NCBI GenBank assembly: GCA_029257185.1
Contig: JARICT010000023.1
Coordinates: forward strand, 1 to 49,666
DNA from: Quadrisphaera sp.
GTDB lineage: Bacteria > Actinomycetota > Actinomycetes > Actinomycetales > Quadrisphaeraceae
Direction: 5' to 3'
Length of the DNA: 49,666 bases
Part shown: positions 10,424 through 30,707 of the stretch, one piece after another
How the letters are laid out: each line of letters starts with the position of its first letter
How positions within the stretch are numbered: position 1 is the first letter of the stretch
Position numbers and translations under genes: made by a program
The notes under the pieces: model-generated
Databases searched by the model: none
The model's input: only the letters and a program-made list of their open reading frames with translations
Told to the model about the DNA's origin: nothing

Positions 10424-11872
10424 TCAGCGTGCGGGCCCGGCGTGCGGGGCCCGGTCCCGCGAGCCGGACGGGCCCGACGAGTCTGACGGGGTCGACGACG
10501 AGGACGACCCCGAGCGCGATCCCGAGCGCGACGAGCTCTGGGACTGGGACGTGGTACTCGACGACGTCGAGGCGGACGTGGAGGTGGACGACGTCGAGCC
10601 GGTCGACGTCGGTGACGAGCCCGTCGACGAGGTGTCTTCCGGCGTCCCCCCCGTCCCCGGCTGCCGGGGGGCGTCGCTCGTCGGGACGGTGTCCTGGCTG
10701 CCGTCGTCCGCGGGAGGCTCGGGGGCAGGAGGTTCCTCCGGCTCTTCCGGCTGGTCAGCAGGCGACCGGGTGTCGGAGCTCGGGGCGAGCGAGTCCTGCG
10801 CCGGCGGGGGCCGGCCGTCGTCCGACCCCCGGTTCGCGTCCCAGAGCAGGTAGCCGCCCACACCGGCCCCGACGAGGGCCGCCGCGACGACGCCGGCGAC
10901 CACCGGGTGGGCCGCGATGCCGGACGTGCCCGCGACGACCCCCTGGCCGGCGCCCGCCGTCGACTGCCCGGCTGCGCCGGCTCCCGCCGTGGTGCCCGCC
11001 CCTGCACCGGACCCGGCGGCCGACGAGCCGCCACCGGCGGTCGCGGCCGCTCCGGTCTGGCCGGCGGCGCCGGTGAGGGCCGCCGCGGGGCTTCCTGCCG
11101 GCAGCGGCCACCCGAGCTCCATCGCCGCGAGCCCCAGCAGGGCGGCGGGCAGCAGGTCGGCGCCCAGCGTGGCGTTGACCTCCACGAGCTCGTCCCTGAC
11201 CTTGCGGCAGTCGGGGCACGCGGCGAGGTGCTCGTCGAGCGCCCGGCGGTCCCGACGGCCCAGCGACGACCGCACCGACGGCGCCAGCAGCTCGACCACG
11301 CGCTCGTGACCGGCGGGGACCTGCGCGGCGTGCTCGCTGAGCCACGCGGTCCGCAGCCCCTCGCGCGCCCGCACGGCGAGCTGGGAGACCGCCCTGGGGG
11401 TGATGCCGAGCAGCGGGGCCACCTTCGAGGGTCCTTCACCCTGGATCTCGGTGTGCCACAGCACCAGCTGCCACCGTTCGGGGAGGCTGCGGAAGGCTCG
11501 TCCCGCCAGCTGCTGCTCGAGCTGGCCGATGACGGGGTCCCCGACCTCGTGCTCCTGGTGCAGCGGGGAATCCGCCTCGTCCAGGGACTCGACCGGCGTC
11601 ACCCGGCGCTCGCGGCGAAAGCGGTCGATGGCCGCGTTGCGCACCGCGCGCAGCAGGTAGGGGCGGAAGGCCACCTCGGGGCCGCCGCCCTCGCGGAGCA
11701 CCGTGAACGTCTTGGTGAACGCGTCAGCGACCACGTCCTCGGCGTCGCGGTCGGCGATCTGACGGGCGACACCGAGCGCCACCCCCACATGACGCTCGTA
11801 CAGCTGGGCGTAAGCACTCGTGTCGCCGGTCCGGGACCGGTCGATCAGCGACGAGTCTTCCTCGATGGTCAT
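10424..11872 (-). CDS. ECF sigma factor fused to zinc-finger anti-sigma domain, TM helix and Ser-rich tail
   Basis: 482-residue membrane-tethered sigma factor. Region 2 covers about 10-90 (DVVADAFTKTF and YLLRAVRNAAIDRFRR) and region 4 about 120-175 (LPERWQLVLWHTEIQG and ITPRAVSQLAVRAREGL). An anti-sigma zinc motif H215-x3-C219-x2-C222 (HLAACPDC) is fused behind it. An Ala/Gly linker leads to one membrane helix at about 323-344, then about 135 residues of Ser/Thr/Pro/Asp-rich, presumably extracytoplasmic sequence. Sigma and anti-sigma are usually separate proteins. I infer release or conformational control by an envelope signal. A GTG at 11884 is an alternative start. The diguanylate cyclase lies 88 bp upstream, probably in the same operon. 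Confidence 0.9.
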   Translation of the reverse strand: MTIEEDSSLIDRSRTGDTSAYAQLYERHVGVALGVARQIADRDAEDVVADAFTKTFTVLREGGGPEVAFRPYLLRAVRNAAIDRFRRERRVTPVESLDEADSPLHQEHEVGDPVIGQLEQQLAGRAFRSLPERWQLVLWHTEIQGEGPSKVAPLLGITPRAVSQLAVRAREGLRTAWLSEHAAQVPAGHERVVELLAPSVRSSLGRRDRRALDEHLAACPDCRKVRDELVEVNATLGADLLPAALLGLAAMELGWPLPAGSPAAALTGAAGQTGAAATAGGGSSAAGSGAGAGTTAGAGAAGQSTAGAGQGVVAGTSGIAAHPVVAGVVAAALVGAGVGGYLLWDANRGSDDGRPPPAQDSLAPSSDTRSPADQPEEPEEPPAPEPPADDGSQDTVPTSDAPRQPGTGGTPEDTSSTGSSPTSTGSTSSTSTSASTSSSTTSQSQSSSRSGSRSGSSSSSTPSDSSGPSGSRDRAPHAGPAR

Positions 11873-25160: not shown

Positions 25161-25205
25161 ACGGGGCCGACCAGGACCGCTCGCGCGGATCGTGGTCGGC
25201 CCCGT
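25161..25205. terminator. Bidirectional hairpin terminator
   Basis: A perfect 13-bp stem (25161-25173 with 25193-25205; arm ACGGGGCCGACCA) around a 19-nt loop. It lies between two convergent operons: the first EPS operon and the sigma/CHAT/subtilase block. Confidence 0.85.
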
Positions 25206-25221: not shown

Positions 25222-26481
25222 TCAGCGCCGGCTGTCCTCCAGGCTGGCGACGACGTCCACGGACCCGCGCTTGATCTTCGGGCCCTGGGCCTTCACCGCC
25301 GTGCGCTCGATGCTCTTCACCAGGGAGCCCGACGGGCGACCCTGGTCCTGCGCCGCGAGCAGGGCGGCCTGGCCGGCCACCATCGGTGCGGCCATCGAGG
25401 TGCCGCTCCACCGGGCGTAGCCGCCCCCGGGGACGGGGCCCACGACGCCGGTGCCCGGCGCCGCGACGTCGACCCACGAGCCGTGGTCCGCGAAGCCGGC
25501 GATGCCCGCGCCGTCCAGGGCGGTCACCGACAGCACGTGCTTCTCGGCGGCCGGGTGGTGCTCACGCGCGCTCGCGTCGTTGCCCGCGGCCGCCACGACG
25601 ACGGCGCCGCTGCGCTCGGCCGCGGCGATGGCGTCGGTGAGGACCCGGCTGCGGTCCTTCTTCTTCCGCTCGTCCACAGTGCCCAGGCTGAGGTTGATGA
25701 CGTCGGCGCCGGCCGCGGCCGCGTCGTGGACGGCCTCGGCGACGACGTAGGCGCTCCCCTGCCCGTCGCTGTCGAGCACCCGGTACGGCAGCACCCGGGC
25801 GTCGGGCGCGACGGTCAGCGCGAGGCCGGCGACGAAGGTGCCGTGACCGACCGCCTCGTCGACCACGCCGTCGCCGTTGGAGTCCACACCGGCGCTCGCG
25901 TCCTCGGGGGTGCCGTCCTCGTCGACGAGGTCCGCGCCGGCGCCCACGCGGCCCGCCAGCACCGGGTGGTCCGCGTCGACCCCGGTGTCCAGGACGGCGA
26001 TGGTCGCCCCGGTCCCGCTGCTGAGCGCGTGAGCGGCCGGCAGGCGCAGCGGCTCCACCGCCGGCTGCGTCGCCAGCTGCGCGGCGTCCCCGCCGACCGG
26101 GACCGGTCCCTGGGAGGACCAGTGGTGGAACCCGCTGTCCGCCAGGGTGGCGGTGAGGTCCGGCTCGGCATAGTCCACGCCGGGAGTCTTCGCGATGCTC
26201 CGGGCGAGCTTGGCGACGCGCTCCGGGTCGCCGGCGACCGCGCCGGTGCGGGGACGCACGAGATAGATGCCGCGCGAGGCCAGGACCGTTCCCGTGACCT
26301 CCAGGTCGAGGTCCTCGGCCAGCGTCTCGACGGAGGCACCTCCGGTCGGCGAGACCTTGACGACGATGTCGATCTCCGGCGAGGCGTGCTGGGCGGTCGG
26401 GGCGGCGAGCGCGCCGGGCGCGGCCACCACGGACATCAGGAGGGCGGCGGCGAGAGCCGGGGCGAGGGGCGGACGCTTCAT
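25222..26481 (-). CDS. Secreted S8 subtilisin-like serine protease
   Basis: 419 residues. Signal peptide about 1-27, then an I9-like inhibitory propeptide (about 36-110, ending TPGVDYAEPDL). The catalytic domain has a complete triad: Asp165 (VLDTGVDADHP), His213 (GHGTFVAG) and Ser362 (SGTSMAAP), with oxyanion Asn301 (AAGND). No C-terminal membrane anchor, so it should be released, unlike MycP-type mycosins. It is the last gene of a minus-strand block, 64 bp after the CHAT protease gene, which suggests joint expression. The ribosome-binding site is poor; 9-bp tandem repeats fill the gap. Substrate unknown. Confidence 0.94.
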   Translation of the reverse strand: MKRPPLAPALAAALLMSVVAAPGALAAPTAQHASPEIDIVVKVSPTGGASVETLAEDLDLEVTGTVLASRGIYLVRPRTGAVAGDPERVAKLARSIAKTPGVDYAEPDLTATLADSGFHHWSSQGPVPVGGDAAQLATQPAVEPLRLPAAHALSSGTGATIAVLDTGVDADHPVLAGRVGAGADLVDEDGTPEDASAGVDSNGDGVVDEAVGHGTFVAGLALTVAPDARVLPYRVLDSDGQGSAYVVAEAVHDAAAAGADVINLSLGTVDERKKKDRSRVLTDAIAAAERSGAVVVAAAGNDASAREHHPAAEKHVLSVTALDGAGIAGFADHGSWVDVAAPGTGVVGPVPGGGYARWSGTSMAAPMVAGQAALLAAQDQGRPSGSLVKSIERTAVKAQGPKIKRGSVDVVASLEDSRR

Positions 26482-26492
26482 GGGGTTCCGTT

Positions 26493-26528
26493 CGGTCGGG
26501 TCGGTCGGGTCGGTCAGGTCGGTCGGGG
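26493..26528. repeat. Four 9-bp tandem repeats between CHAT and subtilase genes
   Basis: Four contiguous copies of CGGTCGGGT (third copy with A for G, fourth with a final G) occupy most of the 64-bp gap and reach to 12 nt before the subtilase start. Copy-number change would alter the distance between the two genes. Confidence 0.85.
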
Positions 26529-26545
26529 GGCGAGAGGGCGGCGGC

Positions 26546-29401
26546 CTACGGCCCGCGGCTCGGGGGGACGGAGCCCCCCGGGGACGCCGCGAACGTGAAC
26601 GGCGCCCAGTAGTAGGGGTGGGGGTGCTCGGCGGCCGCGGCGAGCTGCGCGGCGCGCAGCGCCGAGGCCGGCGGGTGACCGGCGACGACGAGCCGGCTGT
26701 AGTGCGTCATGAGCTCGGCGGTCACCTCGTCGTGGACGAGCCACTGGCTGACCAGCACCCCCGACGCGCCCGCAGCCAGGAACGCCCAGGCCAGCCCCAC
26801 CGGCTCTGTCCCCCCACCACGGTCCCCGGAACGACCGGACTCACAGGCGGACAGCGTGGTGAGGGCGCCGCCGAGGTCGAGCCTCAGGACGTCTGCCGCC
26901 GTGAGCCACCCGTCCCCCAGCCGCAGCGCGGAGAAGAGCGGGTTGCGAGCGCGGTGGAGGCCGTGGCAGGCGATGTGCAGCAGCCCCGGACCGGGCACCC
27001 TGGCCGCCAGGGCGGCGCGGGTGGCCGCTGCACCGACCAGCACGGTGGACTCGGGGAGCAGGTCCGCGATGGACGCGGCCTCCCGGAGCACGGAGGGGGC
27101 GTCGGCGTCCGGCACCGCGAGCACGAGCGCGGAGGACGTCGGGTCGAGGGGTCGGCTCCTCGGGACCTGGCCGTCGGCCGCGGTGGGGCCCACGGTGATG
27201 GACCACTGCGCGAGGCGGTGCTCGTGGCCGTCGTGGAGGGCGTGGAAGGGGATCTGCTGCAGGCGTCCGTGCGGGACCACCATGAGGTCCGAACCCTGCG
27301 TCCCTGCGAGCAGCGGCTCCAGGGGGCGCACGACGAGGCGGTCCAGGGAGCCCAGCAGGTCGAGCGCGGTGGCCGTCAGGGCGCTCTCGTGGCGCCGGAC
27401 GAAGGCCGCCCCCATGGAGAAGCGTGACCACTGGTCGGTCAGCGAGGCCAGGACGGCGTCGATCTGGGGGACCACCCCGCGCAAGCGCCTCGCCGCGACC
27501 TCGCCGTCGCGGCTGACGAAGGCCACCAGGTCACGCCCGAGCAGGTGGTAGGTCACCGTCGCGCCCCTGCGGCGCTGGGGCCGGCCCACGACGGCGGGGG
27601 CCACCTCCGCCGGGCGGCCGTGCACGGCCCGCGAGACGGGGGCCGCCGTCACCTCCGCGAGCTCGGACCGGAGATGGCTGTCGGTGACCGCGGTCTCGAG
27701 CGCGTCGGCACGCGAGCGCAGCTGGGCCCGCTCGCCCGGGGGGCCGGCGACGAGCAGTCCCGAGTACACCGCGGCCAGCTCCGACCGCAGCTCGTCGCGC
27801 TCGACCGACGAGGCGTCACGGTGGCGCCGCAGGGGGTGGGACCCCACGGTCCCCGTGACCAGCTCGACGAGCGTGCGCGCCCTCGCCCGTTCGCTCGCAG
27901 CCCGCGCGGCCTCGACGTCACCGGGTCCGCCCCGCTCGATCAACAGGTCGACGAGCTCGTCCTGCGCGTCGAGGCGCCCGGAGCGGAAGGCGGTGCGCAG
28001 CACGTGGCCGGGCAACCCGCCGCCGCGCTGCTCGGCCTCGTCGGCCGCCTCGCGCAGGAGCCTCTCGGCCGCCACCGTCCGCCCCTGGCGGCGGTGCAGC
28101 CGCGCGCGCTGGAGCCGGTACCGGTGGTGGGCGTGGGGGAAGGGGGTGGACTCCAGCAGCGCCGCGACGGCATCGAGGTGGAGCTCGGCGGCCCCGTCGT
28201 CGCCACCGCCCGCGGCCACCTCGGCCTGACGCAGACGGGCCAGGACCAGCGGCACCGCCCAGCCGCCCGCGGCCAGGAGGCCCGCGGCCTCCTGGGCGAG
28301 CTCGCCCGCCCGCAGCGGGCATCCCGCCGCGGCGGCGATGCCGGCCTCGGCGCGGCGCCCCGGCGCCGCCGCGGCGGCGCCGCCGACCTCGTGGTAGAGC
28401 CTCCCGGCGACCTGGAGCTCGGCGCTCGCGACCTCGTGGTTCCCGGTGGAGGCAGCGACGAGCGCGAGGACGAAGCGCGCGTCGGCCGTGTCGTGCGTCA
28501 TCGACGCCAGCTCCGTCGTCGCCAGCGCCGCGGTCGCCTCGGCCCGCGCCTCGGTCACGAGCCCCGCCTCCAGGTAGACCCCGGCCGCCACCACGCGCAG
28601 CCGTGCCCCCTCCGCGGTGGCCCCGAGACCCTCGAGCGCCAGCCGGGCGAGCTCGAGCTCCTGGAGAGCGCTCACGAGGTCCCCGAGCTGGCGGTGCACG
28701 GTGGCGATGTGCCGCTGCGCGGTGGCGCGCCCCAGCACGTCCCCGCTCGCAGCGAAACCCAGCTCCACGGCCCGCAGCACCTCCATCGCCTGGTGCGCCC
28801 GTCCCAGCGCCAGCAGCGCGAGGCCGCGGTTCGCCATGGAGCGCAGGGCCATCTCCCCACGCCCCGAGCGCTGGAACGCCTCCTCGGACCCCAGGTGCGC
28901 CTCGATGGCCCGCACGTGGTCGCCCAGGAAGCCGCGGGCCACGCCCACGTTGTCGAGCGCGGCCGCGCGGAGCCAGGCGAGCTGGTCCGCGTCGCCCGAG
29001 CCCTCGCGGGCGTCCGGGTCGAGCTCGTCGAGGTGGCGCAGGAGCGCCTCACCGACGGCCAGCGCCTCGGGGTGGCGCCCCAGGTCGTCCAGCACCTGCA
29101 TCCTGCCGAGGTCGGTCCTCAGCGCGGCGAGCGGCTCGCCTGCCTCCCACCACAGGGCCCGCGCGCCCTCGACCAGCTCCATGGACGCCTCGAGCTCCCC
29201 ACGCTCCGCGAGCACTCGAGCACGCAGGTAGTGGGCGCGAGCGGCGAGGGCCGTGAGGCCGGCACCGTCCGCCGCGTCCGCCGCCGCGACGGCGAGCGAC
29301 TCGGCGGTGCAGGGGCTCTCGTGCACGAGGTCCTCGGCGCAGTCGAGGAGGGCGAGGACGCCGCCCTCGTCCGAGAACCCCTCCGGCGACGGATCGGCCA
29401 T
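26546..29401 (-). CDS. TPR-CHAT protease (caspase-like)
   Basis: 951 residues, no signal peptide or clear membrane helix, so cytoplasmic. Residues about 1-560 are all-helical and Ala/Leu/Glu-rich with TPR-like repeats (for example MALRSMANRGLALLALGRAHQ and ATAQRHIATVHRQLGDLVSA). The C-terminal 300 residues form a CHAT domain with the His/Cys dyad His813 (HIACHG) and Cys853 (SACESG), so it looks active. TPR-CHAT proteins are proteases whose TPR part recognises partners; relatives act in CRISPR type III-E and gasdermin defence. Start: TGATG junction with the upstream anti-sigma-like gene, so the two are translationally coupled. Confidence 0.92.
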   Translation of the reverse strand: MADPSPEGFSDEGGVLALLDCAEDLVHESPCTAESLAVAAADAADGAGLTALAARAHYLRARVLAERGELEASMELVEGARALWWEAGEPLAALRTDLGRMQVLDDLGRHPEALAVGEALLRHLDELDPDAREGSGDADQLAWLRAAALDNVGVARGFLGDHVRAIEAHLGSEEAFQRSGRGEMALRSMANRGLALLALGRAHQAMEVLRAVELGFAASGDVLGRATAQRHIATVHRQLGDLVSALQELELARLALEGLGATAEGARLRVVAAGVYLEAGLVTEARAEATAALATTELASMTHDTADARFVLALVAASTGNHEVASAELQVAGRLYHEVGGAAAAAPGRRAEAGIAAAAGCPLRAGELAQEAAGLLAAGGWAVPLVLARLRQAEVAAGGGDDGAAELHLDAVAALLESTPFPHAHHRYRLQRARLHRRQGRTVAAERLLREAADEAEQRGGGLPGHVLRTAFRSGRLDAQDELVDLLIERGGPGDVEAARAASERARARTLVELVTGTVGSHPLRRHRDASSVERDELRSELAAVYSGLLVAGPPGERAQLRSRADALETAVTDSHLRSELAEVTAAPVSRAVHGRPAEVAPAVVGRPQRRRGATVTYHLLGRDLVAFVSRDGEVAARRLRGVVPQIDAVLASLTDQWSRFSMGAAFVRRHESALTATALDLLGSLDRLVVRPLEPLLAGTQGSDLMVVPHGRLQQIPFHALHDGHEHRLAQWSITVGPTAADGQVPRSRPLDPTSSALVLAVPDADAPSVLREAASIADLLPESTVLVGAAATRAALAARVPGPGLLHIACHGLHRARNPLFSALRLGDGWLTAADVLRLDLGGALTTLSACESGRSGDRGGGTEPVGLAWAFLAAGASGVLVSQWLVHDEVTAELMTHYSRLVVAGHPPASALRAAQLAAAAEHPHPYYWAPFTFAASPGGSVPPSRGP

Positions 29402-30033
29402 CAGGCGCAGCCGCGGAGGTCGAGGGCGGCCACGAGGACGACCTCCCCGTCGTCGAGCCTGAGCTCGTCCGCGTCGTCGGGCACGCGGGACAGCTCGAAG
29501 CGGCCCAGGGAGTCGCCTCGCGGGGAGCTGGTCACCGCCCGGGGCCCGCTGGCCTCGGCCACCACGCCCGTCGCGGAGCTGGAGCGGGTCTGCAGCACCT
29601 GACCGCGGACGCGGACCGTCGCGGGGGTGAGGCGCTCGACGTCGAGCACCACCTCGGCCTCGTCGCTCGTGTACGCCAGGTGCACCGTCGCGTCGTCGGG
29701 GTCGGCGGCCCGCACCCCCGCGCGCACGAGGTCCTGGCGGGAGTCGAAGACCAGGCGCAGCGAGATGTGCAGCGGCGCCGAGCGGGCCCGCTCGGCCGCC
29801 CACCGCTCGAACACGGCCTCCAGCCGCGGGCGCAGGGTGGGTGGTGGGACGGGCAGGGAGACGCGCGCCGCGAGCTCGCGGAAACCGGTGGCCCACTCGA
29901 CGATCCCGACCACGCGGGCGTCCCCGTCGGCGACCGCCCGCTCCACGGGCTCGGCCGCGGCGGCGTCCAGCCGACCCTCGACCCAGTCGAGCACCGCCTC
30001 GAAGTCGGGTCCGTCCCCCGCCGGAGCGCTCAC
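29401..30033 (-). CDS. Anti-sigma-like protein without zinc ligands, beta-rich C-terminal domain
   Basis: 210 residues, soluble. Residues 7-55 (LDWVEGRLDAAAAEPVERAV and onward) follow the helical pattern of zinc-binding anti-sigma N-termini (LxxYLDGxLxxxExxxVExHL), but the HxxxCxxC ligands are missing. The C-terminal half is beta-rich, with RVRGQVLQ and SLGRFELSRVPDDADELRL, like a carboxypeptidase-regulatory or transthyretin-like sandwich. The GTG start overlaps the sigma factor stop (GTGA) and the stop overlaps the CHAT start. I infer it controls the adjacent sigma factor; I cannot assign it to a named family. A GTG-based start was chosen because it abuts the sigma stop. Confidence 0.75.
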   Translation of the reverse strand: MSAPAGDGPDFEAVLDWVEGRLDAAAAEPVERAVADGDARVVGIVEWATGFRELAARVSLPVPPPTLRPRLEAVFERWAAERARSAPLHISLRLVFDSRQDLVRAGVRAADPDDATVHLAYTSDEAEVVLDVERLTPATVRVRGQVLQTRSSSATGVVAEASGPRAVTSSPRGDSLGRFELSRVPDDADELRLDDGEVVLVAALDLRGCA

Positions 30034-30707
30034 GCCACGTCCCCGACCGTGTCGGTCATCACCTGGCGCAGGCGGCGCAGGCAGCGGGCGCGCGCCGGGC
30101 CGATCGTCCCGACCGCCCGGCCGGTGCGGTCGGCCACCTCCGCGTAGGTGGGCTCCGCGGGGTCCAGGTAGAGCGCGACGAGGAGGTCCCGGCAGGGTGG
30201 CGCCAGCCGTCCGAGGGCGCCGTGGAGCATCTCGGCCCGCTCGAAGTCCTCGATCGGGTCCACGAGGGCGGAGCGCGGGACGTCCAGGAGGTCGGCGCGC
30301 TCGCGCTCCCGCTGGGCCCCTCGGCGGTGGCGCCAGGCCGTGCGCCGGGCCACGGTCATCAACCACGAGGCGAGCCGCTCGGAGCGGACGAGGTCGTCGA
30401 TCGACTCCAGCAGCACCGTGAACGTGGTCTGCGTCACGTCGGCGGCGTCGTCGCGGTCGAGGCCGTTGCGCACGGCGACGGTGAACACGAGCCGCTCGTA
30501 GCGGCGCACCAGCGCCGTCCAGGCCGCGGCCTCACCGCGGCGGCAGCGTGCGAGCAGCGTCTGGTCGTCGGGCTCCGTCTCCGACGACGGCGCCGTTGAC
30601 GACGGCGCGAATGACGACGCCGCTGCTGCTGGGGCGTCGCTCGCGATGCTCCCGAGACCGGGCCCCGCGCCGACCGCCTCCTCGGCGACCGACCGTCGCT
30701 CGTGCAC
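30030..30707 (-). CDS. ECF-type RNA polymerase sigma factor
   Basis: 225 residues. An unordered Ala/Ser/Pro-rich N-terminal extension of about 45 residues includes SSxAP repeats encoded by 15-bp DNA repeats. Region 2 lies at about 50-130 (LLARCRRGEAAAWTALVRRY, then DVTQTTFTVLL) and region 4 at about 160-218 (LAPPCRDLLVALYL, TYAEVADRTGRAVGTIGPAR). No anti-sigma domain is fused. It begins a coupled operon: sigma, anti-sigma-like protein, TPR-CHAT, then subtilase. GTG 30707 follows a G-rich stretch; GTG 30800 would add 31 unlikely residues. It probably drives its own operon, but I could not identify its promoter box. Confidence 0.9.
   Translation of the reverse strand: MHERRSVAEEAVGAGPGLGSIASDAPAAAASSFAPSSTAPSSETEPDDQTLLARCRRGEAAAWTALVRRYERLVFTVAVRNGLDRDDAADVTQTTFTVLLESIDDLVRSERLASWLMTVARRTAWRHRRGAQRERERADLLDVPRSALVDPIEDFERAEMLHGALGRLAPPCRDLLVALYLDPAEPTYAEVADRTGRAVGTIGPARARCLRRLRQVMTDTVGDVA
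30583..30627. repeat. Three 15-bp in-frame tandem repeats in the sigma factor gene
   Basis: Three imperfect 15-mers, each starting GACGACG, encode SSFAP, SSTAP and a diverged copy in the sigma factor's N-terminal extension. Being a multiple of three, copy changes would lengthen the linker without frameshift. Confidence 0.75.

Follow-up and report, generated by a model that had tools for sequence, protein, structure and literature searches.

What do an ECF-type sigma factor, a small soluble protein, a TPR-CHAT protease and a secreted subtilase (S8) do side by side in an actinobacterium? We analysed a stretch of 49,666 nucleotides from Quadrisphaera sp. (assembly GCA_029257185.1, contig JARICT010000023.1), hereafter the window. 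Re-reading it confirmed that the four genes lie on the minus strand at the positions claimed by a first-pass annotation made from the letters alone. In the order of reading, the features are:

30030..30707, minus strand: ECF-type sigma factor, 225 aa as given (Pfam Sigma70_r2, TIGR02937, homologues in the same place in relatives)
29401..30033, minus strand: anti-sigma-like protein, 210 aa, soluble (predicted structure, family profile, GTGA overlap with the sigma stop)
26546..29401, minus strand: TPR-CHAT protease, 951 aa (Pfam CHAT E 8e-49, TPR_12; TGATG overlap)
26492..26527, no strand assigned: 9-bp tandem repeat (TCGGTCGGG), four copies, in the CHAT-S8 gap
25222..26481, minus strand: secreted subtilase S8, 419 aa (Peptidase_S8 Pfam E 3e-40; triad alignment)
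25161..25205, no strand assigned: hairpin with a 13-bp perfect stem (-51.9 kcal/mol, z -3.6), convergent genes on either side

Both gene overlaps called in the first-pass annotation can be read from the letters: a GTGA shared by the sigma stop and the start of the 210-aa gene (30030-30033), and a TGATG shared by the end of that gene and the start of CHAT (~29401). The S8 gene starts 64 bp past the CHAT end with no overlap, so that its co-transcription with the other three is presumed. The proposed bidirectional terminator downstream of S8 stood in part: the hairpin is real and sits between convergent genes, but it has no T run, and the terminator role is only plausible. Sugar transferase, glycosyltransferase and GNAT (Acetyltransf_6) genes in the flanks are consistent with the claim that EPS operons lie on both sides of the block. 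In the window's assembly (3.05 Mb, 178 contigs, 90.5% complete), CHAT is single-copy and set among polysaccharide genes.

The sigma factor scored above cut-off for Sigma70_r2 (Pfam E 3e-10) and for TIGR02937 (59.9 bits, cut-off 42.9). Region 4 is present below cut-off, and the combination of sigma2 and sigma4 without sigma1.1 or sigma3 is that of an ECF sigma factor. The conserved part covers approximately residues 47-220 and homologues start ~40 residues later; the annotated start is uncertain, and another in-frame GTG extends the frame to 30800. A scan for a bipartite promoter shared by the upstream regions of sigma and S8 gave none that we trusted. One GC-rich promoter pair in type-A S8 upstream regions (8, versus 4-5 in shuffles) was rejected because GC-rich coding sequence probably accounts for it.

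The 210-aa protein taken alone matched no Pfam or NCBIfam family above threshold. Across its family, CarboxypepD_reg was matched in 12/15 members, zf-HC2 weakly in 3/15, and RskA_N was also weakly matched. Family members share an N-terminal block (consensus DWxEGRLPxxEARAVE...EWLRxF), a linker in which the motif FDS...GVRS is conserved, and a C-terminal domain, the part that CarboxypepD_reg matches. The predicted model of the window's protein (mean pLDDT 75, pTM 0.50) shows helices at 11-18, 24-36, 39-57 and 68-83, a low-confidence or disordered linker at ~86-111 and a transthyretin/CarboxypepD_reg-like beta sandwich at ~116-205; no transmembrane segment was apparent by hydropathy. Foldseek ranked ChrR of the SigE-ChrR complex first for this model, a weak match (E 0.017, low TM-score), and a second look returned only generic beta sandwiches, all with Z < 7. 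The HxxxCxxC zinc motif is absent from the window's protein and from the members examined in families f65 (another family of the same phylum) and f78, and it is present in the member from an Acidobacterial genome (L005). How far can the earlier label of a Zn-less anti-sigma-like protein be kept? The four predicted helices, the first rank of ChrR and the HxxxCxxC of L005 favour it, but the ChrR and Pfam matches are weak; a putative anti-sigma factor is the likely identity according to the predicted model. Shorter homologues of ~150 aa occur in other Actinomycetota; they lack the first helices but retain the final helix and the beta domain, so that sigma binding there would use another surface or be absent. 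In those Actinomycetota the short forms genuinely weaken the case for an anti-sigma. The sole 210-aa match among 99 relatives was discarded as a false positive within a beta-lactamase-like frame. The family profile, run against PDB sequences only, did not list Csx30.

The TPR-CHAT protein consists of a TPR superhelix (~12-510) and a caspase-like region (~614-940). His813 and Cys853, described as intact in the first-pass annotation, are invariant in 15/15 orthologues aligned, and the protein thus combines a TPR superhelix with a CHAT domain that carries the His/Cys dyad. By Foldseek its 951-residue model matches separase, which gave top hits, and Csx29; a second look gave Z 23-26 for both, over ~520-810 residues for the long chains, and the profile retrieved Csx29-type chains by sequence as well (8d9f, E 1.7e-12). 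The TPR part of the model resembles many TPR proteins, among them NprR (Z 28.6) and a RapJ-peptide structure (Z 27.2), with rmsd ~5 over ~350 residues. In a plasmid collection, the matches listed were to the CHAT region (26-37% identity).

The subtilase has a signal-peptide-like N-terminus, a weak match to a Fervidolysin-type prodomain and the catalytic triad Asp165/His213/Ser362. That triad had been called intact, and the orthologue alignment agrees: His, Asn and Ser show no variation, and Asp aligns in 14/15. The protein matches the PADLOC subtilase model and the IetS model. Assignment as a type VII secretion mycosin was rejected (163 bits, NCBIfam cut-off 278.75).

Are the four genes neighbours elsewhere? 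The first-pass annotation had treated them as a single system, and their homologues do adjoin in many genomes from two phyla. In the Acidobacteria MAG L005, sigma, the 210-aa family, S8 and TPR-CHAT lie within 5.6 kb. A CHAT-region profile found strong CHAT orthologues in 17/39 genomes of f65, in 20 copies, and each of the 16 copies whose contig is uninterrupted comes with the full set of four. A further f65 locus (L090) has the four genes with a broken CHAT frame and only a remnant of S8, and three (L066, L089, L091) are interrupted by contig ends. In an actinobacterial MAG (L004), S8 comes after CHAT at the edge of a contig, apparently the same contig as that of L066. S8 is mostly downstream of CHAT in f65 and lies upstream of sigma in L069, L075, L086 and L087. 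The tightest arrangement seen is that of f78 (L081), in which all four genes overlap (gaps -4, -4, -4). In L090 and in L092, the latter one of the sixteen, CHAT is read as two overlapping frames, which may reflect a frameshift, a sequencing error or decay.

We then scored partners around those CHAT loci from the class and the phylum that have flanks of 2.5 kb or more on either side. Among 42 loci of the same CHAT type, many of which come from f65 and hence are not independent, S8 is adjacent (within 4.5 kb) in 40, sigma in 31 and the 210-aa family in 31; all three partners occur in 29, and ten have S8 but lack a sigma gene in that range. Neither S8 nor sigma was seen at eleven less similar CHAT loci, where the 210-aa family had a single weak match; this contrast is descriptive because the type threshold is the score of a model partly trained on these same loci. 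S8 matches number 3-19 per genome in eight genomes checked and sigma region 2 matches 8-44 per genome; at these low counts the chance of accidental adjacency is small. The closest partner of this CHAT type is thus the subtilase and not sigma (40/42 vs 31/42), and at some loci CHAT and S8 form a pair without a sigma gene in the vicinity. The module is widespread, beyond one actinobacterial oddity. A fifth conserved gene was not found among the neighbours, which are lineage-specific, mainly an OmpR-type response regulator. In eight loci (L117, L118, L119, L101, L104, L110, L096 and L098) with no sigma within 4.5 kb, CHAT and S8 are on opposite strands, divergent, with little or no gap. One 10 Mb genome (G203, contig C1) has fifteen CHAT matches; the two genes inspected there are of another type.

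We compared the histories of the four genes. The sigma tree sets the window, f65, L081 and the Acidobacterium apart from other Actinomycetota (support 100/99), and the S8 tree gives the identical split (support 100/100). Members from the window's own class fall among the other Actinomycetota in both trees. The tree of the 210-aa family shows the same split except for L070, a poorly aligned row (34% of columns). In the CHAT tree the window stands beside f65; this tree was left out of placing the window because L005 and L081 have very long branches. Between the four families, matrices of pairwise identity correlate with r 0.84-0.93, an agreement to which shared species history contributes. Read most simply, these results suggest a module that moves as a whole, with the window's copy acquired from beyond its own class.

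The f65 loci carry a further feature in their control regions. Direct TTAGA/TCTAA repeats spaced by 11 bp, a spacing that resembles OmpR/PhoB-type sites, lie upstream of sigma in L068 (~11260-11300), L071 and L067, and upstream of S8 in L072, L073, L077 and L078. An OmpR-type response regulator and a histidine kinase adjoin the module in L067, L068 and L070, and in L071 by similarity. The triple repeat has 0-2 matches per genome, and the single match in each of G415 and G492 is the upstream region of sigma. No double TTAGA/TCTAA repeat was found in the window, and this control layer of f65 looks lineage-specific by its distribution.

How might the four proteins work together? A precedent comes from type III-E CRISPR, where Csx29 cleaves Csx30, an inhibitor of the ECF sigma factor CASP-sigma (PMC10028731). 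Csx30 has two domains joined by a flexible linker; its N-terminal domain binds the ECF sigma factor, with a strong predicted interaction, and its C-terminal domain serves for recognition and contacts Csx29 solely at CHAT2 (PMC10028731). We propose that the four genes form one signalling module, inherited together, in which TPR-CHAT cuts the anti-sigma and frees sigma, with the subtilase as output or feedback, a proposal that we see as evenly poised between right and wrong. In this scheme, the N-terminal helices of the 210-aa protein would hold the cytoplasmic ECF sigma factor in an inactive state. TPR-CHAT would be a cytoplasmic cysteine protease under allosteric gating, whose TPR superhelix takes in a signal, either a ligand or a partner. 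Once activated, it would dock on the anti-sigma through the latter's beta domain and cleave this protein, the likeliest site being the exposed linker or a place next to it. Sigma would thereby be released. The targets that free sigma then transcribes would plausibly include the gene of the secreted subtilase, and extracellular activity of this enzyme would be an output or a feedback. We infer sigma binding, cleavage, the signal and the regulon. The parallel with Csx29-Csx30 (three roles, three adjacent genes, no RAMP found in the assembly) favours CHAT-driven release of sigma. The constancy of S8 is a feature that the CRISPR precedent leaves unexplained.

The main rival is a model in which sigma and the anti-sigma only control a two-protease effector pair: CHAT and the subtilase would be the outputs, for example in stress proteolysis, cell death or growth arrest, while the anti-sigma would not be a target of CHAT. 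CHAT-S8 is indeed the most invariant pair (40/42) and is found without sigma; from the ten CHAT-S8 loci without sigma within 4.5 kb, it appears that the two proteases can work without a neighbouring sigma factor. The protease genes are placed downstream in the operon, and caspase-like peptidases are reported beside ECF sigma genes in other bacterial conflict systems (PMC8195603). However, the genes are translationally coupled and CHAT often occurs with the anti-sigma beta domain, which suggests a stoichiometric partnership, and the only characterised TPR-CHAT that we found beside an ECF sigma factor cuts its anti-sigma (PMC10028731). We consider the effector pair somewhat unlikely. What counts against our own proposal, besides the weak ChrR match, the short homologues, the loci without sigma and the lack of a shared promoter, is that cytoplasmic CHAT and secreted S8 cannot act directly on each other unless one of them is exported or imported.

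An alternative that passes the signal across the membrane is a loop of the Rap/NprR kind, in which the subtilase would make or process a peptide outside the cell. After uptake, this peptide would be sensed by the TPR part of CHAT, with sigma as the transcriptional arm. The full-length alignment of the TPR part with the NprR and RapJ-peptide structures speaks for this loop, as does the secretion of S8, the most invariant partner. Yet TPR superhelices are alike in general (LGN and APPBP2 score equal to NprR and RapJ against the TPR part), and no recurrent gene for a peptide precursor or importer was found nearby among the frames of at least 100 aa screened, which leaves the loop quite improbable. 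We regard as very improbable that the module is an anti-phage defence with a CHAT protease triggered by infection. TPR-CHAT proteases do serve in type III-E CRISPR defence, and S8 matches the PADLOC subtilase model with E 1.5e-23, but sigma, the 210-aa protein and CHAT have no PADLOC match. Furthermore, viral contigs and phage records yielded no relative, no RAMP was found in the assembly that contains the window, and its single CHAT copy sits among polysaccharide genes.

Which known systems does the module resemble? ChrR, a soluble class I anti-sigma, shares with the 210-aa protein, as predicted from its model, a helical N-terminus, a cytoplasmic C-terminal beta domain and a gene right after sigma. 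The beta domain of ChrR is a cupin; the window's protein differs in that it lacks HxxxCxxC, has a CarboxypepD_reg-like beta domain and is linked to a protease gene. Separase, a top fold match of the TPR-CHAT protein, likewise places a caspase-like protease domain after a TPR-like superhelix, but the window's protease is bacterial and far smaller than the human protein, and the kinship is one of fold. The EACC/TRADD-N conflict systems (PMC8195603) also combine a caspase-like peptidase with an ECF sigma factor and a TPR protein; their domain families differ, however, and the main text of PMC8195603 mentions neither CHAT nor subtilase. The open-access literature searched held no description of the module, only type III-E papers; an earlier mention in ECF classification work is possible.

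Type III-E CRISPR offers another comparison. Both systems have a TPR-CHAT adjoining an ECF sigma factor and a two-domain, linker-joined inhibitor (putative in the window), and the window's protease shares its fold with Csx29. They differ in several respects. Searches for a RAMP (Cas7-11; PF03787) came back empty for the window's assembly and for 11/12 other carriers, and the window's CHAT scores 36.7 bits against an NCBIfam Csx29 cut-off of 300. The window's putative inhibitor has 210 aa with a transthyretin-like domain, versus ~565 residues in Csx30, and the subtilase is an extra component. The only TPR-CHAT that we found described as acting on an anti-sigma is the type III-E one. If our reading is true, protease cleavage of cytoplasmic anti-sigmas would be a general signalling mode, and a CRISPR-free set with an added subtilase, spread over two phyla, would be a candidate source of the CRISPR version. 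A bolder form holds that this CRISPR-free, phylum-spanning switch is the stock of the type III-E Csx29-Csx30-CASP-sigma cassette and that TPR-CHAT reads a signal made or modified by the subtilase before it cuts the anti-sigma; in this full form we think it unlikely. The module supplies four defined proteins for assay. By analogy, these results suggest that the switch built from sigma factor, inhibitor and protease, known so far from type III-E CRISPR, has a CRISPR-free version here.
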